Shown here in pieces: positions 8,481-21,238 of a stretch of 64,000 nucleotides of DNA (its first letter is position 1; every line of letters starts with the position of its first letter). The translations under genes were made by a program, and so were the position numbers. Location: contig NZ_OGTP01000004.1 in the NCBI RefSeq assembly GCF_900258035.1, positions 124,001-188,000 on the forward strand, given 5' to 3'. The stretch is from Caballeronia novacaledonica (lineage in GTDB: Bacteria; Pseudomonadota; Gammaproteobacteria; Burkholderiales; Burkholderiaceae). Under the pieces are notes generated by a model, which had not been told where the DNA came from, searched no databases, and saw only the letters and a list, made by a program, of their open reading frames with translations.

Positions 8481-8971
8481 ATGCCGCTCAATCCCGATTC
8501 CCCTCTCGCACGTCTCATGAATGCTCCGGTGAGGCCGGGCAAAGTCGTATGGATAGGCTTGCGCGGCGCGCGGCGCGAGCCGCTCGACGTGGTCGAATTC
8601 GCGCTCGCGCTGACGGACGGCGGTCTCGAAGGCGACCACTACAGCCGCAAGGGCGGCAATCGGCAAGTAACGCTGATGCGGAGAGCCTGCGCGCGATAGC
8701 GAGCCACCTCGGTCTCGATGACGTTTCGCCCCTGGATTTGCGGCGCAATATCGTTACGGCGGGCATGAATCTTCATGCGCTGAAGGACCGGCGCTTTCGT
8801 ATCGGCGGCGCGGTGCTGGAAGCGAGCGGGGAATGTCATCCGTGCTCGCGCATGGAAGAGGCGTTCGGCGTGGGCGGCTATAACGCGGTGCGCGGATTCG
8901 GCGGCATCACGGCGCGCGTCGTCGAAGGCGGCAGGCTCGATCTTTCGAGCATGATCGAGCCGCTGCCCTGA
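8481..8971 (+). pseudogene. MOSC-domain protein gene broken by a frameshift
   Basis: The first frame gives a MOSC N-terminal part (VRPGKVVWIGLRGARREPLD, then LTDGGLEGDHYSRKGGNRQVTLM) and breaks near 8680, ending at 8699. The next frame continues with the rest of the domain: ESLRAIASHLGLDDVSPLDLRRNIVTAG, then ASGECHPCSRMEEAFG with the conserved cysteine. The text at the junction fits loss of about four bases between LM and AESLRA. MOSC proteins handle sulfur from the molybdenum cofactor or bind metals. As written, the gene cannot make the full protein, unless this is an assembly error. Confidence 0.8.
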
Positions 8972-8985
8972 TCGCTCGCGCTGGC

Positions 8986-9046
8986 CGTCGCAAGTTGCGA
9001 CATCCTCATACGACAAAGCTTCGTCAATGTGTTCGAAACTGCGACA
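8986..9046 (+). promoter_or_regulatory. Paired activator-site candidates upstream of the adh promoter
   Basis: Two 17-bp near-palindromes fit TGTCGCA-N3-TGCGACA: 8986-9002 (CGTCGCAAGTTGCGACA) and 9030-9046 (TGTTCGAAACTGCGACA). They lie 44 bp centre to centre and about 100-160 bp upstream of the sigma54 promoter at 9144, the normal distance for enhancer sites. The reverse complement of the second site matches the site at 11000-11016 in 15 of 17 positions. Likely bound by the MimR-like activator; this is inference. Confidence 0.65.
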
Positions 9047-9143
9047 CGTCTCCCCGCAACCCGCCCGGAGTCATGCGCGTATCGCGTAGCCGATTGCCGC
9101 GAAGACGTGCAGGAATCCGGGTTCTCCGCGCAGAGGTCTTCAT

Positions 9144-9159
9144 TGGCGTAATCCTTGCT
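9144..9159 (+). promoter_or_regulatory. Sigma54 (-24/-12) promoter of the alcohol dehydrogenase gene
   Basis: The sequence TGGCGTAATCCTTGCT matches the sigma54 consensus TGGCAC-N5-TTGCA/T, with GG at 9145-9146 and GC at 9157-9158 separated by exactly ten bases. Transcription would start near 9170, about 50 bases before the GTG start at 9219. Two enhancer-like sites lie upstream. Confidence 0.75.
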
Positions 9160-9218
9160 CCAGAGGCTCCGCGGGCAGCTCTGCGCTGACTCGACGATAA
9201 CGCCCAAGGAGACATAAC

Positions 9219-10262
9219 GTGAAGGCTGCCGTGCTGCACGAGTACGACGAAACCTTGTCCCGCGACGAATTCGTTCGCTATGAAGACGTTGAAACGCCCG
9301 ACATCGTCAGACCGACCGACGTGATCGTCCGCATCGGCGGAGCAGGCGTGTGCCGCACCGACCTGCACGTCGTCGAGGGAATCTGGCGCGGCAAGGTCGA
9401 TGTCGCGCTCCCCTACATCATGGGCCACGAGAACGCCGGCTGGGTCGAGGCCGTCGGGCGCGCCGTCGAAAGCGTCAAGGTGGGCGATCCGGTCGTCTGT
9501 CATCCGCTCGTCACGAGCGGCCACTGTCTCGCGTGCCGGCGCGGCGACGACATGCACGCGACCGAGAGCCGCTTTCCCGGCATCAACGCGAACGGCGGTT
9601 ACGCCGAATATCTATCGACCGGCGAACGCTCGCTGATCCGTCTGCCATCCACGCTCGCGCCGAAAGACGTCGCGCCCTACACGGATGCCGGCCTGACCGC
9701 ATATCGCGCCGCGAAGAAGGCGTCGCGTCATTTGCTGCCCGGGCAGTTCGCCGTGGTGATCGGTGCGGGCGGACTGGGGCATATCGGCATTCAGGTGCTC
9801 AATGCGCTGTGCGCGGCGGAGATCATCGTCGTCGATCGTTCGGAAACTGCGCTGGCGCTAGCGAAAGAGTGCGGCGCGCATCACACCGTTCAAGCCGGGG
9901 AAGGCGATGTGGAACGCGTGCTCGAACTGATGCACGGCAACGGCGCGGAAGCCGTGATCGATTTCGTCGGCGAAGGCGATGCCATCGCGAAAGGTCTCGC
10001 GATGACGCGCAATGCGGGCTTCTATTACATCGTCGGTTATGGCGGGAAGATCGAGATTCCGACCATCGACATGATCACGAGCGAAAAGACCATCGTGGGC
10101 AATCTGGTCGGAACCTATCCCGAACTCGTCGAACTGATGGCGCTCGCGGATCGCGGGCTCGTGAATCTGGCCACGCGCGAATACCGGCTGAGCGACGCGA
10201 ATCAGGCGCTCAAGGATCTGCATCACGGCAGGATCAAGGGACGCGCGGTCCTCATTCCCTAG
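9219..10262 (+). CDS. Zinc-type NAD(P)-dependent alcohol dehydrogenase of the monooxygenase island
   Basis: A GTG start at 9219 follows AAGGAG. The 347-residue medium-chain dehydrogenase has the catalytic zinc ligands C45 (GVCRTDLH) and H70-E71 (GHEN), and the Rossmann motif VIGAGGLGHIGIQ. Its close relatives accompany Prm/Mim propane/acetone monooxygenases and oxidise the alcohol product, for example 2-propanol to acetone. The lobe that normally holds structural zinc reads VTSGHCLACRRGDDMHATES. Only C103 and C106 remain, with S100 and A114 at the other two expected cysteine positions. It is the first gene after the sigma54 promoter at 9144, while the monooxygenase genes begin 945 bp later. 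Confidence 0.9.
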   Translation: MKAAVLHEYDETLSRDEFVRYEDVETPDIVRPTDVIVRIGGAGVCRTDLHVVEGIWRGKVDVALPYIMGHENAGWVEAVGRAVESVKVGDPVVCHPLVTSGHCLACRRGDDMHATESRFPGINANGGYAEYLSTGERSLIRLPSTLAPKDVAPYTDAGLTAYRAAKKASRHLLPGQFAVVIGAGGLGHIGIQVLNALCAAEIIVVDRSETALALAKECGAHHTVQAGEGDVERVLELMHGNGAEAVIDFVGEGDAIAKGLAMTRNAGFYYIVGYGGKIEIPTIDMITSEKTIVGNLVGTYPELVELMALADRGLVNLATREYRLSDANQALKDLHHGRIKGRAVLIP

Positions 10263-10295
10263 TAGCCGGTCAACTGGATTCGAGCGGAGAGCGTC

Positions 10296-10601
10296 ATGGC
10301 GGCGCAAGGCAATGTCACGCCCATCTCGGAGCGCGTGCGGCTCGTGATCGCGCTGACGCAGATCAATTCGGATCATCTGCGCGGCAAGAGCCGCGTCGCG
10401 GGCGTCGAGATCGAGCTGGAAGGCGCGCTGGCGGCAAGTCCGCCCGAAGCGCGCACGTCGCAGCAATGTCTGGACATCGAGATGCTGCGCGAACGGCTAC
10501 ACGACGCGAACGAATCGATACGCGCGCTCGAGGAACGACGCGCGCGTCTCACTGCTGCACTGGCGGACGTGGAAGCGGCGCTGCGCCGCGAGTCGCGATG
10601 A
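10296..10601 (+). CDS. Hypothetical protein with C-terminal coiled coil
   Basis: A 101-residue protein following GGAGAG, starting 34 bases after the alcohol dehydrogenase stop. The second half (IEMLRERLHDANESIRALEERRARLTAALADVEAALR region) has heptad-like leucines and alternating charges, typical of a short coiled coil. No enzymatic motif is visible and I do not recognise the family. Its stop overlaps the ATG of a decayed CobW-like gene by four bases, so both may have been part of an older operon. Spacing and ribosome site make it more likely real than not. Confidence 0.5.
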   Translation: MAAQGNVTPISERVRLVIALTQINSDHLRGKSRVAGVEIELEGALAASPPEARTSQQCLDIEMLRERLHDANESIRALEERRARLTAALADVEAALRRESR

Positions 10602-10816
10602 AGCGCATGACCGGCTTTCCCGGCGCGGGCAAGACCACGCCGCTCGATTGTGTGCTGCGCCGGGCAGCCCGGGCGGCGCTTTGGAGTCGTCGAATTCCGC
10701 CAGCGCACCGAAGTCGATAGCGCGATCTGCGTCGCCGATGCGCTGCGTCTGTCGGCGATCCCGCGCTCGTGTATCTGCCGCACGCGTTATTCAGGATCTC
10801 GGGAACACGGAGATGA
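10598..10816 (+). pseudogene. Decayed CobW-like GTPase/metallochaperone remnant
   Basis: The first frame starts MKRMTGFPGAGKTTPLDCVLRRA, which resembles the P-loop start of CobW/COG0523 GTPases (TGFLGAGKTTLLNHVLR) with the loop GAGKTT intact. It ends after 40 codons. A second frame then reads RRFGVVEFRQRTEVDSAICVADALRL, and a third reads DPALVYLPHALFRISG. Both suit later parts of a CobW-type GTPase domain. At least two frameshifts and internal deletions are needed, so the gene is dead. Family assignment is moderate because so little is left. Confidence 0.55.
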
Positions 10817-10995
10817 ACATGACGACCGATGCAACCACGAAAGAAGCGTTCTTCGAACGGCTAGGCGCGCTGTCCGACGAGATGATCGGCGCGTACGGCC
10901 GCGACTTCGCGATGGGCGCGCTGATCGTCGCCGCGCGCTGCATCGCGCAAGGACAGCCGGTTGAGAACGAATCCACGCCCGCGAACAGCCCGTGA
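10813..10995 (+). CDS. Small hypothetical protein
   Basis: An open frame of 60 residues (MNMTTDATTKEAFFERLGALSDEMIGAYGRDFAMGALIVAARCIAQ...) starting at 10813, or two codons later at 10819. The composition looks like a folded helical peptide and the frame has good third-position GC. No family is recognised and the ribosome site is weak. It ends just before the enhancer-like site at 11000. It could also be a leftover of the decayed region. Confidence 0.4.
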   Translation: MNMTTDATTKEAFFERLGALSDEMIGAYGRDFAMGALIVAARCIAQGQPVENESTPANSP

Positions 10996-10999
10996 ACGA

Positions 11000-11048
11000 T
11001 GTCGCAGATTCGGACACCGCAGGAACGCACACGTCGCGTTCCACGACA
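11000..11048 (+). promoter_or_regulatory. Paired activator-site candidates upstream of the mimA promoter
   Basis: Sites at 11000-11016 (TGTCGCAGATTCGGACA) and 11032-11048 (CGTCGCGTTCCACGACA) fit the same TGTCGCA-N3-TGCGACA pattern as the pair upstream of the alcohol dehydrogenase. They are 32 bp apart centre to centre and end about 40 bp before the sigma54 promoter at 11090. The repeat of the arrangement at both promoters supports a common activator. Confidence 0.65.
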
Positions 11049-11089
11049 CGCTCGCGAGCGCGGCCTTGCTGCATGGGGACCGAAGCGCA

Positions 11090-11105
11090 TGGCACGCTTG
11101 TCGCT
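11090..11105 (+). promoter_or_regulatory. Sigma54 (-24/-12) promoter of the monooxygenase operon
   Basis: TGGCACGCTTGTCGCT has a perfect -24 element TGGCAC. The -12 GC at 11103-11104 lies ten bases after the GG, with TCGC in place of TTGC. Predicted start is near 11116, leaving a 90-base leader before mimA. It agrees with the sigma54-type activator encoded at the end of the same gene cluster. Confidence 0.7.
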
Positions 11106-11206: not shown

Positions 11207-12877
11207 ATGTCAGAAGCATTAACGCTCAACAAGATCACGTCCCAGCGAGGAATCAGCATCGGCGAGGCGGCCAAACGCGTCGCGGATCTCGGCTGGACAC
11301 CCAGTTACGTTCAGGAAGCGATGACCTTCCCGACCGACTACAAGATCAGCAAGGCGCCGCGCGATCCCATGAAGCAGGTTTTGCGCTCGTATTTCCCGAT
11401 GCAGGAGGAGAAGGACAACCGCGTCTACGGCGCGCTCGACGCGGCGTTGCGCGGCGATATGTTCCGTAATGTCGAGCCGCGCTGGGTCGAGTGGATGAAG
11501 CTGTTCCTCGCGATCATCCCGTTTCCGGAAATCTCGGCCGCACGCTCGATGGCGATGCTCGGCCGTCTTGCGCCCGGAGAAGAACTGCGCACCGGCTTCA
11601 CGATGCAGATGGTCGACGAGTTTCGCCACTCGACGATCCAGATGAACCTGAAGAAGTGGTACATGGAGAACTACATCGATCCGGCGGGCTTCGATATCAC
11701 CGAAGCCGCGTTCGGCAAGTGCTACGCGACGACCATCGGCCGGCAGTTCGCGGAAGGCTTTCTGACGGGCGATGCCGTGACGGCCGCCAACGTGTTCCTG
11801 CAGGTGGTCGCGGAAACCGCCTTCACCAACACGCTGTTCGTGGCGATGCCATCGGAAGCGGCGCGCAACGGCGACTATGCGTTGCCGACCGTGTTCCTTT
11901 CCGTGCAGTCGGATGAGAGCCGGCACATTGGCAATGGTCATTCGCTGATGATGTCGGTCATCAACGATCCGGACAATCATCTGCTGCTCGAACGGGATCT
12001 GCGCTATGCGTTCTGGCAGAACCACGCCATCGTCGATGCGGCCATCGGCACGTTCATCGAGTACGGCACGACCGATCGCGACAAGAAGAAGGAGTCGTAT
12101 GCGGAGTTGTGGCACCGGTGGATCTACGAGGATTACTACCGCACCTACATGCTGCCGCTCGAAAAGTACGGCATCAAGATTCATCACGACGATGTCGCCG
12201 CCGCGTGGGATCGCCTCGTCAAGAAGAACTACGTGCACAAGGTCGCGCAATTCTTCTCGGTCGGCTGGCCGGTGAACTTCTGGCGCATCGAGGCGCAGAC
12301 CGAGAAGGACTTCGAGTGGTTCGAGCATAAATATCCGGGCTGGTATGCGGAGTTCGGCGACTACTGGAAGTGGTATGCGAAGAAGAGCGTGCCGGGCGAG
12401 ACCAACATGCTGTTCGATCAGGAGAACGGCTATGTGTATCCGCATCGGTGCTGGAGCTGCCTCGTGCCGTGTCTGATCCGCGAGGACTTCTGCGTCGATG
12501 AAGTCGACGGCAAGCTCTACACGTACTGCTCGGAGTTATGCCGCTGGACACACAAGGTCGCGTTCGCGTCGGAATACGAAGGCCGTCCGACGCCCGCGAT
12601 GGGCCGCTTCAGCGGCCGCCGCGAATGGGAAGAGGTCTATCACGGCTGGGATCTCGCGGATTGCATCAAGGATCTCGGCTTCGTTCGCAGCGACGGCAGG
12701 ACGCTCGTGCCGCAACCGCATCTGCGCTTCGACAACCGCGACATGTGGACGCTCGACCATGTTCGCGGCCACACCATCCAGAGCCCGATCGTGCTGTTGC
12801 GGGAGATGACGCCGGAGCAGCGCGAGAAGCACATCGCGGAATATCGCGCGGGCTTCACGATCAATCCGTGCAGTTGA
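11207..12877 (+). CDS. mimA: Soluble diiron monooxygenase hydroxylase alpha subunit (Mim/Prm type)
   Basis: A 556-residue catalytic subunit of a binuclear iron monooxygenase that inserts one oxygen atom of O2 into propane, acetone, phenol or similar small substrates. The six iron ligands are all present: E108, E138 and H141 (DEFRH), E203 (AETAF), E237 and H240 (DESRH), each six positions earlier than the methane monooxygenase numbering I recall. A C-terminal cysteine-rich stretch (CWSCLVPC, then YCSELC) is typical of the group. The sequence strongly resembles mycobacterial MimA and Rhodococcus PrmA. AAGGAGAG precedes the ATG. It is the first gene of the sigma54-driven operon. Confidence 0.95.
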   Translation: MSEALTLNKITSQRGISIGEAAKRVADLGWTPSYVQEAMTFPTDYKISKAPRDPMKQVLRSYFPMQEEKDNRVYGALDAALRGDMFRNVEPRWVEWMKLFLAIIPFPEISAARSMAMLGRLAPGEELRTGFTMQMVDEFRHSTIQMNLKKWYMENYIDPAGFDITEAAFGKCYATTIGRQFAEGFLTGDAVTAANVFLQVVAETAFTNTLFVAMPSEAARNGDYALPTVFLSVQSDESRHIGNGHSLMMSVINDPDNHLLLERDLRYAFWQNHAIVDAAIGTFIEYGTTDRDKKKESYAELWHRWIYEDYYRTYMLPLEKYGIKIHHDDVAAAWDRLVKKNYVHKVAQFFSVGWPVNFWRIEAQTEKDFEWFEHKYPGWYAEFGDYWKWYAKKSVPGETNMLFDQENGYVYPHRCWSCLVPCLIREDFCVDEVDGKLYTYCSELCRWTHKVAFASEYEGRPTPAMGRFSGRREWEEVYHGWDLADCIKDLGFVRSDGRTLVPQPHLRFDNRDMWTLDHVRGHTIQSPIVLLREMTPEQREKHIAEYRAGFTINPCS

Positions 12878-12937
12878 GACGGGCCTGCGGCCCGCTGCGT
12901 TCGTGCGCATCGGGCCGCGACGAGCATGGGAAAACCT

Positions 12938-13981
12938 ATGAGCGATTCGAATCAGACGCATACGGTCCGCTTCGAGCCGGTCGGCGTCGAGATGTCCGTC
13001 GAGGAGGGCGAGACGGTGCTGGAGGCGGCGTTCCGGCAGGGCATCGCCGTCATGCACGGATGCAAGGAAGGGCAGTGCAGCAGTTGCAAGTCGCTGCTCG
13101 TGGAGGGCGACGTCGAGTTGAAGAAGTATTCGACCTTCGCATTGCCGGACTACGAAAAGGAGTCGGGTCATATTCTGCTGTGCAGGACGCTCGCCTACAG
13201 CGACCTGACCGTCGAGCTGCTGAACTACGACGAAGACCTGATGCGCCGCTCGATACCCGTAGCCGAATACGACGCGACGGTCACGAGCATCGCGCCGCTC
13301 ACGCACGACATCCGTCTGCTCGAAGTCGAACTGAGCCGTCCGCTGCGCTTCTGGGCCGGCCAGTACGTCGATCTGACGATGCCGTCCGCGGGCATCACGC
13401 GCTCGTTCTCGATGGCCAATCCGCCCGATGGCGAAAGGCGGCTGCGCTTCATCATCAAGAAGTATCCGAACGGCGCGTTCTCTTCGCTGCTCGACGACGG
13501 CCTGAAGCCCGGCGACCGGCTCGTTGCCAAAGGCCCTTACGGCACGTGTTTTCGGCGCGAGGATCAGCCCGGCCCGATGGTGCTGGTCGGAGGCGGTTCG
13601 GGCATGTCGCCGTTGTGGTCGATCCTGCAGGATCACGTAGAGAGCGGCGAAGAACGGCCCGTGCGTTTCTTCTACGGCGCGCGCGCCCGCCGCGACCTGT
13701 TCTATCTCGACGAGTTTGCGGACTTCGCCGGCCGGCTGCCGGACTTCCGCTTCATTCCGGCGCTGTCGAATGCCGAACCCGGCGACGACTGGACGGGCGA
13801 TACGGGTTTCATCCATGAAGTCGTGAGCCGCAGGTTGCGCGAGGAATCGCTCGCGGGCGATATCGACGCCTACGCATGCGGTCCCACGGCGATGATCGAC
13901 GCCGTGATTCCGGCGCTGCAGATGGCGGGCGTGGAACCGGAGCGGCTCTTCTTCGACAAGTTCACTCAGGCGGTCCGATGA
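12938..13981 (+). CDS. mimB: Monooxygenase reductase component (2Fe-2S, FAD, NADH)
   Basis: A 347-residue electron-transfer protein carrying electrons from NADH to the diiron hydroxylase. Residues 1-95 are a plant-type ferredoxin domain with cluster ligands C42, C47, C50 and C82 (HGCKEGQCSSC ... ILLC). An FAD-binding domain with TRSFSMANPP follows, then an NADH domain with LVGGGSGMSPLWSIL and a terminal ACGPTAMID. An in-frame ATG at 12926 is also possible; 12938 is preferred because the protein then starts where I expect relatives to start. It lies between the alpha and beta subunit genes, the order typical of Mim and Prm operons. Confidence 0.94.
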   Translation: MSDSNQTHTVRFEPVGVEMSVEEGETVLEAAFRQGIAVMHGCKEGQCSSCKSLLVEGDVELKKYSTFALPDYEKESGHILLCRTLAYSDLTVELLNYDEDLMRRSIPVAEYDATVTSIAPLTHDIRLLEVELSRPLRFWAGQYVDLTMPSAGITRSFSMANPPDGERRLRFIIKKYPNGAFSSLLDDGLKPGDRLVAKGPYGTCFRREDQPGPMVLVGGGSGMSPLWSILQDHVESGEERPVRFFYGARARRDLFYLDEFADFAGRLPDFRFIPALSNAEPGDDWTGDTGFIHEVVSRRLREESLAGDIDAYACGPTAMIDAVIPALQMAGVEPERLFFDKFTQAVR

Positions 13982-14022: not shown

Positions 14023-15108
14023 ATGAGTACAGTGACGGAGCATTCGGCAACGGTTAAGTCGGGTGCCGCGGGCGCGGCGCAATTCGCGGGCTGGGACAGC
14101 CGCAAGTACAACTATTTCGAACCGAAGGGCCGCAAGGCGAGCCATTACGAGGACATGACCGTCGACGTGCAGCCGGACCCGAAGCGCTATCTGATTCAGG
14201 ACTGGATCCTTCAGTTCGCCGACGGCACGCCGACCTACTCGGAAACGTGGACAGCGGCGAAAAGCTCGGACTGGCACACGTTCCGCGCGGTCGACGAGGA
14301 ATGGGAGCGCACGCATTATCAGCGTCAGTCGACTATCGTCGGAATGGTTACGAATGCGATCGCCAATGCGCGGCGCACGGGCGCGGTCAAGCGTTTCGAC
14401 AAGGCGTGGGTGAAGGTTCTGGAGCAGCATCTGGGCGCCTACAAACATGCGGAATTCGGCCTCGGCACCGCGACCATGCACGCGCAACGCTACGGCTACA
14501 CGCAGATGATCAACAGCGCGATCCTGACGAACGCGTCGTACAAGCTGCGTTTCGCACAGGACCTGACGCTGTATCTTGGCGAGATCGCGCTCGACCTGCC
14601 CGGCTTCGATCTCGATGCCGGCAAGAAGCACTGGCTCGAAGATCCGGTCTGGCAGCCTACGCGTCTGGCCATCGAGACGATCGGCGGCGCGACCGATTAC
14701 CTTGAAAAGTATTTCGCCGTCAATGTGGTCTTCGAGCCGCTGGTGGGAGATCTGTTCCGCAGCGGTTTCATCATGCAGATCGCGGCTGCGCAAAACGACT
14801 TCGTGACGCCGACCGTCGTGTCCGCCGCCGAAGGCGACTACGAGCGCAATCTCGCCAACGCGGTCGAGCTGTTCCACATGCTCGCGAACGACCCGGCGCA
14901 CGGCGAAGCGAACCGCGCGCTGTTCGGGGCGTGGCTCGAAAAGCACGGCGCGCTCGCCGCCGACGCGGCCAGGCACTTGCAGCCGGTCTGGTCGATTCCC
15001 CATGCGAAGGCGGCGCAATTCACCGATTGCCTGAACAGTTCCATCGAGCGTGCGGAACTGATCGCAAAGGAAATCGGCATTCCGTCTTCACTCGCGACCG
15101 AAGCCTGA
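14023..15108 (+). CDS. mimC: Monooxygenase hydroxylase beta subunit
   Basis: A 361-residue small hydroxylase subunit. It shares the helical ferritin-like fold of the alpha subunit but not the iron ligands, and it supports the alpha subunit in an (alpha-beta)2 core. Features shared with toluene and propane monooxygenase beta subunits include RKYNYFEPKGRKASHYEDMTVDVQPDP at the N terminus, the DWILQFADGTPTYSE block, and the central HMHAQRYGYTQM-like helix (here TATMHAQRYGYTQM). An AAAGGAGAC ribosome site precedes the ATG. The gap to the reductase gene is about 40 bases, so the genes are co-transcribed. Confidence 0.94.
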   Translation: MSTVTEHSATVKSGAAGAAQFAGWDSRKYNYFEPKGRKASHYEDMTVDVQPDPKRYLIQDWILQFADGTPTYSETWTAAKSSDWHTFRAVDEEWERTHYQRQSTIVGMVTNAIANARRTGAVKRFDKAWVKVLEQHLGAYKHAEFGLGTATMHAQRYGYTQMINSAILTNASYKLRFAQDLTLYLGEIALDLPGFDLDAGKKHWLEDPVWQPTRLAIETIGGATDYLEKYFAVNVVFEPLVGDLFRSGFIMQIAAAQNDFVTPTVVSAAEGDYERNLANAVELFHMLANDPAHGEANRALFGAWLEKHGALAADAARHLQPVWSIPHAKAAQFTDCLNSSIERAELIAKEIGIPSSLATEA

Positions 15109-15143: not shown

Positions 15144-15497
15144 ATGTCAGTGCATACCGACAACATCTTCAAGTCGATCAAGGATCTTCGCTTCGAGCAG
15201 ACCATCTCGCATCAGTGCGGCGTGACGATGAACGACAGCGTCGAGGCCCGCGCGATCGCCGAGCTCATGGGAAGCAAGCCGGGCATCACGGTCACGTATC
15301 TGCCGGCGATGATCCGCATCGACGGGCAGGACAAAATCGAGTTCAGGATGGGCGAAATCAGCGAAGTGCTGGGCCGCGAGATGACGCCTCATCTGTTCGA
15401 GATATCGACGTCGACGCATTACGGCCGCATGGTGATGATCGACGACGACACCGTCGTGCTGTTCGGCAACATGGAAGACGCGATGGCCTACGAATGA
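15144..15497 (+). CDS. mimD: Monooxygenase coupling/effector protein (MmoB/DmpM family)
   Basis: A 117-residue cofactor-free protein of the MmoB/DmpM family, which binds the hydroxylase and tunes O2 activation and substrate access. The family pattern is visible: NDSVEARAIAELMGSKPGITVTYLPAMIRIDGQDKIEFRM, followed by a short C-terminal strand region. The ATG at 15144 follows AACAGGAGCAG. It completes the four-component set alpha, reductase, beta, coupling protein, with about 35 bases to the upstream gene. Confidence 0.94.
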   Translation: MSVHTDNIFKSIKDLRFEQTISHQCGVTMNDSVEARAIAELMGSKPGITVTYLPAMIRIDGQDKIEFRMGEISEVLGREMTPHLFEISTSTHYGRMVMIDDDTVVLFGNMEDAMAYE

Positions 15498-15555: not shown

Positions 15556-16581
15556 ATGTTCAGAACTCAGGACGGCGAGGAGATTTTCATCATCGACGGG
15601 CACGTTCACCTATGGGACGGCAGCAAGGCGAATCTGAAGAACGTGCACGGCCAGCAGTTCATCGACTGCTTCTATGCGTATCACAGCAATCTGAGCCCGA
15701 AGGAATATCTGTGGCCGAAGGAGAAGTTCGACAAGTACGGCGAAGAAGTGATGTATGAAGACCTGTTCGTCACCGGCTACGACGACATGGCGATCTGCCA
15801 GCCGACCTATCTCACCGACTTCTACAAGAACGGCTTCAACACCACCGAGGCGAACTACGTGGTGAAGAAGAAGTATCCGCACCGTTTCATCGTGAACGGC
15901 GCGTTCGATCCGCGCGATGGCGAAGCGGGGCTGGAGCGCCTGAACGAGCTTGCCGAGCTTTACAAGATTCAGGGCGTGAAGCTCTATACGGCGGAATGGC
16001 GCGGCGACAGCAAGGGCTACAAGCTGTCCGATCCGGGCGCGTATCGCTTTCTGGAGCGATGCGAGCAACTGGGCATCAGGAACATTCACGTGCATAAGGG
16101 CCCGACGATTCTGCCGCTCAACCGCGATGCCTTCGACGTCGCGGATATCGACGATGTCGCAACGAGCTTCCAGGGACTGAACTTCATCGTCGAGCATTGC
16201 GGGCTGCCGCGCCTGGACGATTTCTGCTGGATCGCCACGCAGGAAACGAACGTCTATGGCGGGCTCGCCGTTGTGCTGCCGTTCATCCACACGCGGCCCG
16301 AATACTTCGCGCACGTGATTTCCGAGCTTCTGTTCTGGATCGGCGAGGACCGCATTCTCTACGGCAGCGATTACGCGATCTGGTCGCCCAAATGGCTGAT
16401 CGAAAAGTTCATGGCGTTCGAGCTGCCGGAATCGGTCAGCAAGGAAACGGGCGTGAAGCTGACGCTCGAGGCGAAGAAAAAGATCCTCGGGCTGAATGCG
16501 GCGCGCCTGTACGGCATCGATATCGACGCGCAGAAGAAGCTGCTCGAAGAGGCGCCGCACCCTGCGGTGGCGCACGCATGA
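15556..16581 (+). CDS. Amidohydrolase-superfamily protein of the monooxygenase operon
   Basis: A 341-residue metal-dependent hydrolase of the amidohydrolase-2 type, with the barrel metal motif IIDGHVHLWD near residue 20, HVHKGPT and FIVEHCGLPRLDDF in the middle, and the catalytic aspartate region ILYGSDYAIWSP near the C terminus. A gene of this type follows the four monooxygenase genes in Mim/Prm clusters. It is thought to matter for enzyme function or maturation rather than as an ordinary hydrolase, but its reaction is not established to my knowledge. Its stop overlaps the start of the DUF59 gene by four bases, indicating translational coupling. Confidence 0.9.
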   Translation: MFRTQDGEEIFIIDGHVHLWDGSKANLKNVHGQQFIDCFYAYHSNLSPKEYLWPKEKFDKYGEEVMYEDLFVTGYDDMAICQPTYLTDFYKNGFNTTEANYVVKKKYPHRFIVNGAFDPRDGEAGLERLNELAELYKIQGVKLYTAEWRGDSKGYKLSDPGAYRFLERCEQLGIRNIHVHKGPTILPLNRDAFDVADIDDVATSFQGLNFIVEHCGLPRLDDFCWIATQETNVYGGLAVVLPFIHTRPEYFAHVISELLFWIGEDRILYGSDYAIWSPKWLIEKFMAFELPESVSKETGVKLTLEAKKKILGLNAARLYGIDIDAQKKLLEEAPHPAVAHA

Positions 16582-17357
16582 GCGGCGATCGCGCGCAGCA
16601 GGTCTGGGCGCGACTCGCATCCGTCATCGATCCGGAACTCGACGAGTCGGTGACGGAGCTCGGCTTCGTCACCACCGTCGAAGTCGATGCCGAAGGCGGC
16701 GTGGACATCGCATATCGTCTGCCGACTTACTGGTGCGCGGCGAACTTCGCGTATCTGATGGCGGCGGACATGCGCGCGGCCGTCGCGGGCCTGCCGTGGG
16801 TGACGCGCATCGGCCTCACGCTCGACGAGCACATGTACGCGGACGAGATCAATCGCGGCATGGCGCAGAACCTGTCGTTCCAGCGAGCCTTCGGCGACGC
16901 CGCCAGCGACGATCTCGACGAGGTGCGCCGGACGTTTCTCGTCAAGGCGTTCCAGCGCAGGCAGGAGGCGCTGCTGTCGCATCTGCTCGCCCGAGGGCAC
17001 GAAGGGGCGAAGCTGCTTGCGCTCGCCACGGACGAGCTTGCCGCGCTTGACGGCGATCCCGAAACCGCGCGTCTCATCCGGCGATACCTCGAGCGCCGTC
17101 ATGTCTGCGCGCACGAACTCGCCTTCGTCGATACCAACAGCGCGCCCATCGATCCCGCGGCACTCGGCGCTTATCTGCGCGCGTTGCGGCGCGTGGGCGT
17201 GAATGCCGAATTCAACAGCGCGCTCTGCCGTGGCCTGCTTGCGGCCCGCTACGGCGAAGTGGAGGCGCAGCCGATTCATTTTTTCCCGCGACCGCTCGAA
17301 CCAGACAACCATAAACCGGAGACAGGAGCACACGATGCCCAACATCATGCTGCATGA
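16578..17357 (+). CDS. DUF59/MIP18-like iron-sulfur or metal-assembly protein
   Basis: A 259-residue protein. Residues about 8-95 form a DUF59 (MIP18/PaaD/SufT) domain: ASVIDPELDESVTELGFVTTVEVDAEG, then a reactive-looking LPTYWCAANFAYL with one cysteine. Known relatives help assemble iron-sulfur or other metal centres. A helical C-terminal extension of about 150 residues, with HVCAHELAFVDTNSAPIDP, has no recognised motif. It overlaps the amidohydrolase gene by four bases upstream and the GroEL gene by 23 bases downstream. The context suggests loading or maturation of the diiron hydroxylase, which is inference. Confidence 0.85.
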   Translation: MSGDRAQQVWARLASVIDPELDESVTELGFVTTVEVDAEGGVDIAYRLPTYWCAANFAYLMAADMRAAVAGLPWVTRIGLTLDEHMYADEINRGMAQNLSFQRAFGDAASDDLDEVRRTFLVKAFQRRQEALLSHLLARGHEGAKLLALATDELAALDGDPETARLIRRYLERRHVCAHELAFVDTNSAPIDPAALGAYLRALRRVGVNAEFNSALCRGLLAARYGEVEAQPIHFFPRPLEPDNHKPETGAHDAQHHAA

Positions 17358-18972
17358 CGAAGAAGCGCGCGCGGCGCTCGGACGCGGCGTCGGCAAGCTC
17401 GCGCGCGCGGTGAGCGCCACGCTCGGGCCGAAAGGCATGAACGCGATCATCGACCGGCCGATCGGCTCGCCGATCATCTCGCGCGACGGCGTGAGCATCG
17501 CGAGCGAGATCGAGCTGGAAGATCCGTTCGAGAACATCGGCGCACAGGTCGTGCGCGAAGTCTCGAAGCAGACCAACGAAATCGCGGGCGATGGCACGAC
17601 CACGGCCACCGTCCTCGCGGATACGCTCGTGCAGCAAGGTCTCGAATGTCTCGCGGACGGCGCGAACCCGGTCGAGCTCGTGCAGGGGCTCGACGCGGCG
17701 GTAATCGAAGTCATCGCTGCGCTCAGGCGCGCGGCCACGCCGCTGCGCGGGCCGGAGGAAGTGCGCGCGGTCGCCGTGGTCGCGGCCAACGACGACTTCA
17801 CCGGCGGTCTCGTTGCAGAGGCGCTGGAGCGCGTGGGGCCGGACGGCATCGTCGATGTCGAGTACGGCACGACCGTGGAGACGCGGCTCGAAGTGGTCGA
17901 CGGCATGGCGTTCGATCGCGGCTATCTCTCGCATCACATGGTCACGGACATCGAACGCATGCAGGTGGTGCTCGACAGCCCGCTCATCCTGATGACCGAC
18001 CAGCGCCTGCAAAACCAGGCCGAAGTGACGGCGCTGCTCGCGCTCGCGAACGCAAGCAAGCGGCCGCTGCTGATCATCGCGGAGGAGGTCGCGCCCGCGT
18101 GCGTCGTCACGCTGCTGGCGAGCCGCGACAACGGCGGCCCGGCGGTCGCGGCGATTCATCCGCCCGAATACGGTCACTGGCGCAAGGCCATGCTGGAAGA
18201 CATTGCGATCGTCACCGGCGGGCGCGTCATCGCACGCGATCTCGGCGGCAGGCTCGAAGCCGTCGAAATGCGCGATCTGGGCAGCGCGCGGCAGGTCCGC
18301 GTATCGTCCAATCAGACCATCATCACCGCGGGCGGCGGCGATCCGGCGGCGGTGGCGGCGCGGCGTCAGCAGGTTGCGCGTCAGTACGAGATGGCGCCGG
18401 AGAACGTCGAGCGCGACAAGTTCGAAGTCCGGATGGCGAAGCTTTCCGGCGGCACCGCGATGATCCTCGCCGGCGGCGCGACGCCGGTCGAGCAGAAGCG
18501 CCGTCTGCATCTGATCGAGGATTCGATCAACGCGGCGCGCGCGGCGATCGCGGAGGGGATCGTGCCTGGAGGGGGCACGGCGTTGCTGCGCGCATCGGCG
18601 CAACTGGATGACCTGATCGGACGCACGCGCGGCGCGGCGCAACTGGGCGCGCTGCTGCTCAAGCGGGCGCTGGAGAAGCCGCTGTTCACGATCGCGTCGA
18701 ATTGCGGACTGGACGGCCATGCGATCGTCGCGCAGGTGGCGGCGGCCGGCCGCGGTGCCGGGCTCGATGCGCGCACCGGCGAGATCGTCGATCTGCTGGA
18801 GCGCGGCATCATCGATCCGGTGAAGGTGACGTATAGCGCGGTGCGCAATGCGGCATCCGTCGCCGGGCTGATTCTGACGACCCAGACGCTGATCGCCAAG
18901 AAGCCCGATCTCGCCGATCCGACAGCCGGGCCGGCGCTCGGTGCGGGCGCCGAACTGCTCGGGAGAAAATAG
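17335..18972 (+). CDS. mimG: Dedicated GroEL-type chaperonin of the monooxygenase operon
   Basis: A 545-residue Cpn60 subunit with the ATPase motifs of group I chaperonins (ATLGPKGMNAII, AGDGTTTATVLAD, and VPGGGTALLRA near the C terminus). The start at 17335 follows AGGAG and lies within the end of the DUF59 gene. No groES gene is adjacent, and the C terminus ends GAGAELLGRK without the GGM-rich tail of housekeeping GroEL. In mycobacterial Mim systems a GroEL-like protein in the operon is required to fold the hydroxylase large subunit (established for MimG). The same role is likely here. The housekeeping copy should lie elsewhere. Confidence 0.93.
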   Translation: MPNIMLHDEEARAALGRGVGKLARAVSATLGPKGMNAIIDRPIGSPIISRDGVSIASEIELEDPFENIGAQVVREVSKQTNEIAGDGTTTATVLADTLVQQGLECLADGANPVELVQGLDAAVIEVIAALRRAATPLRGPEEVRAVAVVAANDDFTGGLVAEALERVGPDGIVDVEYGTTVETRLEVVDGMAFDRGYLSHHMVTDIERMQVVLDSPLILMTDQRLQNQAEVTALLALANASKRPLLIIAEEVAPACVVTLLASRDNGGPAVAAIHPPEYGHWRKAMLEDIAIVTGGRVIARDLGGRLEAVEMRDLGSARQVRVSSNQTIITAGGGDPAAVAARRQQVARQYEMAPENVERDKFEVRMAKLSGGTAMILAGGATPVEQKRRLHLIEDSINAARAAIAEGIVPGGGTALLRASAQLDDLIGRTRGAAQLGALLLKRALEKPLFTIASNCGLDGHAIVAQVAAAGRGAGLDARTGEIVDLLERGIIDPVKVTYSAVRNAASVAGLILTTQTLIAKKPDLADPTAGPALGAGAELLGRK

Positions 18973-19180: not shown

Positions 19181-21238
19181 ATGACGAGGCGCCTCATCGG
19201 CATGCCGGCTGGCGACGATTCCGCGGGCGAAGGCGGCATCGCCGGGCGGACACGCCCCGACGTGAACGCTGGATTTCAATCGGACAGCAGCACCATGCTC
19301 GCGTGGGAACGCTTTCTGGCGGGCGAAATCACGACCGCCGCACCGACCGAGCTCATCGCGTCGTGGAAGCGGAGTCTGCAATCGGGCGTCAATCCGACCT
19401 CGGGCGCGGCGCCGTTCGCGGTGCATGGCGATGCGATCGACGCGCTGCGCTGGCGTCATCGCGAACTGTTGGCGGCATCGGACCGGCTGTTCGCGGCGAC
19501 GGCGGATCTCTTCGTCGGTTCGTCCTCGATTCTGCTGCTCACCAATGCCGACGGCGTCATTCTGAAGGCCGCCGGCGACCTGCACACGCTCGACGCGGGC
19601 GAAAAAATCCATTTGATGACGGGCGGCGACTGGCGCGAGGCGACGGCCGGGACCAACGGCATCGGCACGGCGCTGGCGACGCGCCAGCCGACCTATATTC
19701 ACGCCTCCGAGCATTTCTGCGAAGGCATCAAGGCGTGGAGCTGCGCCGCCGCGCCGATCTGCGAGCCGGGAACGGGCGCGGTGCTCGGCGTCCTGGACAT
19801 TTCGGGGCCGCCATCGACGTATCAGATCAACAATCTGACGCTCGCCGTGACGGCCGCGCGGCAGATCGAAATGGTGCTCGCGGAGCAGGTGGCGCGCGAG
19901 CAGATGCGCCTGCTTGCGTTTTGTCTGCAACGGCTGTCGTCGGCGGATGCGGCGGGGCTCATCGCCATCGATCGGCGCGGGCGCTTCGTGCACACCACCG
20001 CGCGCATTCCGCTGCCCATCAACCTGGGCGAGCGGTTTCCCGGCATGAGCGAGCATTGCCCGATCGAAGACTGGCCCAATCATCTTCCGCAAGGCTTGCG
20101 GCCGGAATGGTTCGATCCGGTCGTCGCGGACGGCGAAGCGATCGGGGCGATGCTCATCGTCCCGGCGCAGTCCGGGCTTGCGGGCGCGTCGCGTCTGACG
20201 AGCGGTGCGCGGCGCGTCGGCGTGCAGGTTCAGGGGCGCAGCGAAGCCGATCCGAAACGCAACTGCTTCGGGCAGATCATCTGTCAGAGCGCGGCGATGC
20301 AGCGCGCCATCGATCGCGGACGGCAGCTTGCGCGGCGCCGGGTGCCGGTGCTGATCGAAGGGCAGACGGGCGTCGGCAAGGAGCTTTTCGCGCGTGCGAT
20401 CCACGGCGAGGAGTCCGGCGAAGGTCCGTTCGTGGCGTACAACTGCGGGGCGGCGTCGAAGGAGCTGATCGGCGCGGAACTGTTCGGGCACGTGCGCGGC
20501 GCCTACACGGGCGCGACGGCGGAAGGGCGGCCCGGGCGCTTCGAACTCGCGCACGGCGGAACGCTGTGCCTCGACGAAATCGGCGAATTGCCGCTCGATC
20601 TCCAGCCCATTCTGCTGCGCGCGCTGGAAGAGGGCGTGATCTACCGACTCGGCGATACCCAGCCGCGCCGCGTCGATGTGCGGCTCCTCGCCATGACGAA
20701 CCGGAACCTGCGCGAAGAGGTCGAGTGCGGGCGTTTTCGCGCGGATCTCTACTATCGCGTCGGCGTGACGCGGATCTGCATTCCGAGCCTGCGCGAACGC
20801 GACGGCGACGTCGATCTGCTGATCGAGCACTTCAATCGCGCGCTTGCGCTGCGGCATGGCGTGCCCGCGAGAGAGTTTGCGGACATCGTGATGGAAGTGC
20901 TGCGCGCTTACTCGTGGCCTGGCAATGTGCGCGAGCTGCGCAATCTCGTCGAGAACCTGCTGCTCACGTCCAATGACAAGCGCGTGATGCTGGCCGAATT
21001 GCCCGCCGAGGTGCTCGACGAATCTCCCGCCGCGCGCGACAGCGTGACATCCGGCGCCGCGCCGGGCACGGGAAGTCTGGAGGAAACCGAGCGATTCGCC
21101 ATTGCGCGTGCGCTGCGGCATGCGCAGGGCAACATGGCGCAGGCCGCGCGTGCGCTGGGCGTGTCGCGCAGCACGCTGTATCGAAAGATGGAGCAGTACC
21201 GGATTCGCGCCGAGGCTTCGGCGATCTCGTCCCATTAG
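19181..21238 (+). CDS. mimR: Sigma54-dependent activator of the monooxygenase operon (AcoR/MimR type)
   Basis: A 685-residue bacterial enhancer-binding protein starting at the ATG after GGAGGAGAC. The N-terminal 330 residues form an AcoR-like sensor region with a GAF-type domain ([18 protein letters not shown]-like, then [14 protein letters not shown]). The AAA+ domain has Walker A GQTGVGKE near residue 392, the sigma54-contact loop GAYTGA near 440, and [12 protein letters not shown] as Walker B. The C terminus carries a Fis-type helix-turn-helix ([19 protein letters not shown]). It lies downstream of the operon it should activate. The paired 17-bp sites at 8986-9046 and 11000-11048 are its probable targets. 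A weak -10-like TATACT is at 19052. Confidence 0.93.

Follow-up and report, generated by a model that had tools for sequence, protein, structure and literature searches.

Cluster organization and promoter elements

We analysed a 64,000-nucleotide stretch of the Caballeronia novacaledonica genome (hereafter the window; assembly GCF_900258035.1, contig NZ_OGTP01000004.1, positions 124,001 to 188,000), which carries a gene cluster for a Mim-like diiron monooxygenase. The cluster runs in the order alcohol dehydrogenase gene (ADH), small open reading frame (ORF), mimA, mimB, mimC, mimD, amidohydrolase gene, an ORF with an FeS-assembly domain, GroEL-like gene and regulator gene. Two sigma54 (-24/-12) promoters, one ahead of ADH and one ahead of mimA, each follow two near-palindromes of 17 bp (Table 1), and direct reading located all of these elements where the original prediction, made from this DNA alone, had placed them. 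The sites of a pair are 44 bp apart at ADH (8986/9030) and 32 bp apart at mimA (11000/11032). On the plus strand, the ADH pair falls between an ORF that ends at 8971 and the next gene, and the mimA pair between one that ends at 10995 and the next gene; ORFs on the opposite strand in a mechanically made list overlap the sites. Both promoters have GG-N10-GC spacing, which is kept at homologous promoters. The sigma54 consensus is TGGCACGN4TTGCW, from which the ADH promoter departs at three positions and the mimA promoter at one. A near-identical form of this consensus is printed in the accessible part of PMC5874634.

The consensus first proposed for the palindromes, TGTCGCA-N3-TGCGACA, fits three of the sites with one to three mismatches but proved too strict for the proximal mimA site, which has four mismatches and fits the looser TGTCG-N7-CGACA at 9 of 10 positions. 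Once reverse-complemented, the proximal ADH site agrees with the distal mimA site at 15 of 17 bases, as had been claimed.

The cluster was also predicted to encode its own sigma54 activator, and this was borne out. The regulator is a GAF-type bacterial enhancer-binding protein (bEBP) of the AcoR/MimR group, with GAF, PF00158 and HTH_8 matches all above cut-offs; none of the 10 families matched is a receiver domain. Its protein sequence contains what we take to be the GAYTGA and Walker motifs, and it has the SRSTLYRK recognition helix common to its relatives. Its gene adjoins the mimABCD-like cluster including the groEL-like gene, which is the setting of a MimR gene. The name AcoR is applied to it for domain architecture only, and no acetoin enzyme was among the matches when the cluster proteins were scanned with family models. 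The genome contains two RpoN genes (C22:10150 and C40:67574; two PF04552 matches above cut-off).

Table 1 Promoters, palindromic sites and genes of the Mim-like cluster in the window.
Feature	Positions	Strand	Details
Distal site of ADH promoter, CGTCGCAAGTTGCGACA	8986..9002	.	1 mismatch to TGTCGCA-N3-TGCGACA; top-scoring place in window (clade-free matrix, see text)
Proximal site of ADH promoter, TGTTCGAAACTGCGACA	9030..9046	.	3 mismatches to TGTCGCA-N3-TGCGACA
Sigma54 (-24/-12) promoter of ADH, TGGCGTAATCCTTGCT	9144..9159	+	14/16 bases invariant with L005-L007
Zinc alcohol dehydrogenase (ADH), GTG start	9219..10262	+	ADH_N, ADH_zinc_N matches
Small ORF in ADH-mimA gap, function unassigned	10296..10601	+	Matched in 13/15 loci L005-L019 (absent in L018, L019), 47-76%
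Distal site of mimA promoter, TGTCGCAGATTCGGACA	11000..11016	.	2 mismatches to TGTCGCA-N3-TGCGACA
Proximal site of mimA promoter, CGTCGCGTTCCACGACA	11032..11048	.	17/17 bases invariant with L005-L007
Sigma54 (-24/-12) promoter of mimA, TGGCACGCTTGTCGCT	11090..11105	+	16/16 bases invariant with L005-L007
mimA-like large oxygenase subunit, diiron monooxygenase	11207..12877	+	Phenol_Hydrox; 83-99% identity to best 80 GTDB loci
mimB-like reductase	12926..13981	+	Fer2, FAD_binding_6, NAD_binding_1
mimC-like small oxygenase subunit	14023..15108	+	Phenol_Hydrox
mimD-like coupling/effector protein	15144..15497	+	MmoB_DmpM
Amidohydrolase-family protein	15556..16581	+	Amidohydro_2
GroEL-like chaperonin	17335..18972	+	Cpn60_TCP1; GroEL subfamily models
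Sigma54 activator (bEBP), MimR/AcoR type	19181..21238	+	GAF residues 119-232, Sigma54_activat 366-532, HTH_8 632-673

Recurrence of the paired sites in related loci

We performed comparative analyses on relatives found by a protein scan, namely the best 80 of at least 589 confirmed MimA relatives; L-numbers (such as L005) label the homologous loci compared with the window. Promoter regions, with at most 250 bp ahead of the sigma54 site, numbered 61 for mimA and 65 for ADH, the window included. Unseeded counting of inverted repeats, whose arms were allowed to differ at one base, gave GTCCC-N5-GGGAC (24) and TGTCC-N7-GGACA (21) as the top dyads in 54 non-redundant mimA regions, whereas no count in 20 base-composition shuffles exceeded 7. 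The top dyad of ADH was TGTTC-N7-GAACA, present in 31 of 57 regions and at most 8 in shuffles. Seeded expectation-maximization (EM) matrices converged on TGTC.CA-N3-TG.GACA for mimA, where base 5 is G or C, and on TGTTCCG-N3-CGGAACA for ADH.

A clade-free matrix was trained on 45 mimA regions with the Burkholderia clade left out, and a pair was defined as two sites 30-35 or 42-45 bp apart; two training seeds, one of them merely TGT-N11-ACA, led to nearly identical consensus sequences. In the held-out Burkholderia clade, pairs were found in 15 of 16 mimA promoters and in all 16 ADH promoters (window counted); among 6574 background tiles (200 bp each), 2 had one. With the same matrix, 19 of the 45 training mimA regions and 6 of 49 other ADH regions had a pair. 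Sites ahead of a -24/-12 promoter recur upstream of mimA in clusters with an AcoR-like gene, as was expected if the prediction held, and in the Burkholderia clade they recur upstream of ADH as well.

Alignment with L005-L007 showed that 30 of 34 site bases at mimA and 29 of 34 at ADH are invariant, whereas outside the sites and sigma54 elements the invariant bases number 61 of 190 and 37 of 190. The sites are held constant across four relatives amid diverging flanks. Sixteen of the 17 bases of the distal ADH site are invariant, and this site is a perfect palindrome in L005-L007; homologues of the proximal ADH site read TGTCCGATTTTGCGACA or CGTCCGATT[T/C]TGCGACA in 14 of the 15 loci L005-L019.

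Since order-wide and phylum-wide searches yielded few mimA loci (2 of 399 and 4 of 398 genomes, the window's own counted in each), later loci were drawn mostly from plasmids (13 of 28 plasmid records used) and from one family. Seventeen of these (L120-L136) were scored with the seeded EM matrices. A pair was present in L120, L124, L128, L130 and L132 and a single or weak site in L129, L131, L133 and L135; no site was found in L121, L122, L123, L125 and L127, and no usable sigma54 site in L126, L134 and L136. An SRST-type regulator was present in L120, L124, L128 and L132, and all four had a pair, L124 being near the training loci. L130, in which no regulator was seen, also had a pair.

Geometry and genomic specificity

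Among pairs 28-46 bp apart, spacing at mimA was 30-34 bp in 46 of 48 pairs and 37 bp in the other two, and all 39 ADH pairs fell into two groups, 32-34 bp (19) and 42-45 bp (20). The proximal site starts 58-117 bp ahead of the -24 element in 86 of 87 pairs and 159 bp ahead in one. The mimA pair of the window, at -90/-58, is about 33 bp, or about three helical turns, closer to its promoter than the pairs of most of L009-L019 (about -125/-91), a shift that may reflect selected phasing. Offsets of the proximal site cluster near 58, 70, 80, 91 and 114, with a resultant of 0.67 at 11.25 bp over 26 distinct offsets; this helical periodicity is suggestive only, because offsets are common to related loci and the period was chosen by scanning.

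In the window, the clade-free matrix found 24 places at threshold 9, 45 at 8 and 93 at 7. The only close pairs (28-46 bp) at thresholds 9 and 8 were 8986/9030 and 11000/11032, and one extra pair, 22897/22936, appeared at threshold 7. Across the whole genome (6.78 Mb), TGTCGCA-N3-TGCGACA with up to two mismatches occurred at 33 places, 2 of them in the window, compared with 9 for the reversed control. Four stretches covering 6 of the 31 other places contained no suitably placed sigma54 site: one with two mismatches lay about 280 bp off in L098 and another about 2.5 kb off in L097. The sigma54 promoter pattern with one mismatch occurred 76 times versus 60 expected, a weak excess.

The exact form TGTCSCA-N3-TGSGACA was searched in the genomes of 14 relatives (about 79 Mb), where all 14 places, with coordinates matched by hand, were in mim-cluster promoters and the reversed control gave 0. 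Thirteen of these genomes were picked for having a strong site and one was without any, so the informative part is the zero exact sites elsewhere; by a rough estimate, about one would be expected by chance.

Operator class and regulator type

A sigma54 site was detected at mimA in 39 of the 41 loci with an SRST-type regulator, and with a matrix partly trained on them all 39 had at least one palindromic site and 30 had a pair. The remaining two are L022, in which 111 bp separate the start of mimA from the contig end, and L066, in which a TGGT-type element is present. Where the regulator was truncated by a contig end (8 loci), a pair was found in 7. In 39 loci no MimR-type regulator was seen, and these showed a pair (9), a single site (2), no site (9) or no sigma54 site (19); at least 7 of the 9 paired loci are on contigs that end before its usual place. 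Five loci with an SRPT-type helix had no site (4) or a single site (1). The expectation that the operator would occur at other mim clusters stood for loci with SRST-type regulators, but not for those with Bradyrhizobium-type or SRPTLYRK-type regulators, which are without it.

The 69 ADH promoters were classified by the regulators around them, with MimR-type assigned from the helix or, if that was cut off, from identity. With an SRN-type regulator (helix SRN[T/M][I/V]Y) within 4 kb of ADH, 35 of 36 promoters were of the TGTT class and one had no site. Without an SRN-type but with a MimR-type regulator, 21 of 24 were of the TGTC class, one was T and two were mixed. The nine promoters with neither regulator seen were C (2), T (2) or without site (5). 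The two classes also meet within single loci: in all 16 loci that had an ADH-side regulator and in which both promoters carried sites, ADH was T class, and mimA was C in 15 and mixed in 1. Both regulators were visible in 13 of these 16, the contigs of L044, L057 and L059 ending before the MimR-type one. Five further loci with an ADH-side regulator had a T-class ADH promoter and no site at mimA. The contrast within single loci is independent of overall phylogeny, and the events behind it are fewer than the loci. At the level of sequence, this tracking of regulator type and the recurrence described above support the predicted paired-site operator model for the MimR/AcoR-type activator.

In alphaproteobacterial ADH promoters (e.g. 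L043, L071 and L073), the palindrome TGTTCCG-N3-CGGAACA stands alongside a second bEBP beside ADH.

A third dyad class and a tentative operator code

A third class consists of TGTAAAATAACGTTACA-like imperfect dyads located 69-92 bp ahead of the promoter in a group including Rhizobium and Aminobacter. The dyad TGTAA-N7-TTACA was found upstream of mimA in L121-L123, L125, L127 and L139-L142. Of 6 loci first inspected, 5 had it (not Paracoccus, L129), as did 4 of 5 genomes added afterwards (not L143), making 9 of 11 in total, with a single site in each. Six of the 11 genomes showed the SRPTLYRK helix, 5 of these having the dyad; in the remaining 5 genomes the regulator is outside the stretch.

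We tentatively suggest, without leaning towards it, that GAF-type sigma54 activators use a small operator code, in which the frame TGT-N11-ACA is common and base 4 of the half-site varies with the residue that comes directly after SR in the recognition helix. Serine would go with C (TGTCSCA), asparagine with T (TGTTCCG) and proline with A (TGTAA). Counted over half-sites, base 4 was C in 89 of 109 for SRST (mimA and ADH promoters pooled) and T in 56 of 57 for SRN, the half-sites having been picked by matrices that favour C or T but are blind to the regulator. On the same tentative footing, the ADH promoter might have changed its regulator: beside an SRN-type activator it has T-class sites 32-34 bp apart, and in Burkholderia-type genomes without that activator it has C-class sites 42-45 bp apart and could have been captured by the mimA activator. 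Against such a code, further helix residues differ, L082 breaks it, and the classes may be few lineages.

Other features of the cluster

The closest MimA among the matches listed is that of Caballeronia zhejiangensis (99% identity), whose locus has a regulator 89% identical to that of the window. ADH identity to matching relatives is 75-94%, except in L080-L083 (52-65%). A Pfam scan of the small ORF between ADH and mimA gave no family. The mimD-like protein scored 114 bits against the NCBIfam model PropMonoxMimD, below the 150-bit equivalog cut-off for MimABCD/propane 2-monooxygenase, and the enzyme is called Mim-like for this reason.

Discussion

Ligand-sensing bEBPs that bind upstream sites and loop to RNA polymerase-sigma54 are established for this class of regulators. 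Similar pairs at similar promoter distances recur before the same genes in many bacteria, and it is therefore very probable that the cluster's own GAF-AAA+-Fis activator uses both pairs as upstream activating sequences and acts via sigma54-polymerase at both promoters. Sites, promoters, their geometry and conservation, and the co-occurrence of operator and regulator type are observed; from these we infer binding, oligomerisation, ligand and transcripts as follows. Activator dimers would bind each 17-bp palindrome TGTCSCA-N3-TGSGACA, and two dimers on one DNA face (about 32 bp being 3 turns and 43-44 bp 4 turns) would seed an ATPase ring. The ring would loop to RNA polymerase-sigma54 at -24/-12 and open the promoter once the GAF domain senses a ligand, perhaps acetone or an alcohol, which is a guess from mycobacterial MimABCD. 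One promoter would drive ADH, and the other mimABCD and probably also the genes behind it. A GroEL-like partner may matter, the GroEL-like gene being directly before the regulator gene; for the soluble methane monooxygenase of another species, the accessible part of PMC5874634 reports that the GroEL-like MmoG is necessary for MmoR binding.

An alternative that we regard as improbable is that the operators are real but are bound by an activator encoded elsewhere, the cluster's regulator acting at other DNA. Other bEBPs do occur nearby, L005-L007 carrying an extra one (helix ISKTTLWR) upstream of ADH, and binding by the cluster's own regulator is predicted from sequence; however, the operator class follows the type of the neighbouring regulator, both across loci and within two-regulator loci, and loci with SRPTLYRK regulators carry a different dyad. 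It is much less probable that the palindromes are repressor operators or global-factor sites rather than bEBP enhancers: 17-bp palindromic sites are typical of many dimeric regulators, yet these lie upstream of sigma54 promoters and do not overlap them, and the exact strong form is absent elsewhere in the 14 genomes searched. Least probable of all, chance palindromes in a G+C-rich genome, chosen post hoc, would agree with single-site counts at chance level and with the 33 genome places, but are largely refuted by unseeded dyad recovery, by pairs in 31 of 32 held-out promoters versus 2 of 6574 tiles and by invariant sites in diverged flanks.

Several observations weigh against assigning the pairs to the cluster's own activator. 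Single sites are insignificant, because TGTCGCA-N3-TGCGACA with up to three mismatches has 5 matches in the window versus 6.5 (standard deviation 2.7) expected, and the clade-free matrix, scoring the places of the window one by one, gives the four sites ranks 1, 6, 10 and 11. Single-site counts were thus uninformative, and pairing and conservation were therefore tested. Single sites carry little weight, and the evidence is carried by pairing, geometry and conservation. Nine of the 39 SRST-type mimA promoters have a single scoring site. The association between operator class and regulator (Fisher 1e-14 on 35/0/1/21) has a p value that ignores shared ancestry. Class is also impure: where no SRN-type regulator lay beside ADH and both promoters were located (32 loci), the mimA class was C (18), mixed (8), T (2) or none (4). 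Two of the 21 TGTC-class ADH promoters (L080 and L083) have weak sites and an ADH-side activator with an SRTTVYK helix, and L082 combines the SRSTLYRK helix with TGTGCCA half-sites. A site lies upstream of the regulator gene in 1 of 44 loci, and autoregulation through the same site was rejected on this count. No consensus integration host factor (IHF) site was found between operators and promoters.

Among known systems, the mycobacterial MimR-mimABCD system resembles the cluster in combining mimABCD with groEL and a regulator gene, and differs in its promoters, since both promoters of the window are of sigma54 type whereas mycobacteria, to our knowledge, lack sigma54. In the accessible text, mimR is named beside the mimABCD cluster (PMC8394569), and a MimABCD-type enzyme is tied to acetone (PMC7176365). 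No operator of a MimR-type regulator was found in the literature searched, from which subscription papers were mostly absent and which was available in part, so that absence from print is not established. The locus recorded as Mycobacterium sp. KBS0706 (L024) shares the layout of its mim locus with Inquilinus limosus (L020) and has a near-identical ADH operator, and the name may be wrong. In two Rhodococcus loci (L134 and L136), GTCTCA-N3-TGAGAC is located 67-69 bp before mimA in a conserved context and without a nearby sigma54 site; it is possibly an actinobacterial operator. On three Rhodobacterales plasmids, a gene annotated as RNA polymerase sigma-54 lies no more than about 6 kb upstream of mimA (L126, 9180-10439; L129, 6825-8087; L131, 5491-6777), as if these clusters brought their own sigma factor.

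The upstream activating sequence of NifA, TGT-N10-ACA, is likewise a TGT...ACA palindrome upstream of -24/-12, but it is one base shorter than TGT-N11-ACA and belongs to another activator. AcoR of Bacillus subtilis is a bEBP with a ligand pocket, an ATPase and a helix-turn-helix, and has a palindromic operator upstream of the regulated genes; that operator is a single palindromic region, about 30 bp long, that contains two site pairs, in contrast to the two separated 17-bp palindromes of the window, and the AcoR-DNA interaction is called 'not fully characterized' (PMC10018347, in the part accessible). BmoR-PBMO of Thauera butanivorans shares a monooxygenase sigma54 promoter, an alcohol-responsive bEBP and an upstream inverted repeat proposed as its site, but this is a single hairpin 193 bp upstream of -24/-12 whose removal left a wild-type-like response, and the accessible sections of PMC8899819 describe no conserved paired geometry. 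MmoR/MmoG of soluble methane monooxygenase shares the sigma54 promoter and, in two species, a GAF-type bEBP; the enzyme is a methane and not a Mim-type monooxygenase, and no operator sequence is given in the available portion of PMC5874634. The kind of promoter is known. New, within the literature searched, are the operator, the rules by which its sites pair and the correspondence between operator class and regulator type.

The operators recognised by GAF/AcoR-type sigma54 activators remain poorly defined. The comparative data provide a concrete operator, spacing rules and two natural contrast classes for an activator of solvent and gas oxidation, and binding, helical phasing and specificity are therefore directly testable. 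The promoters could serve as sensor parts.

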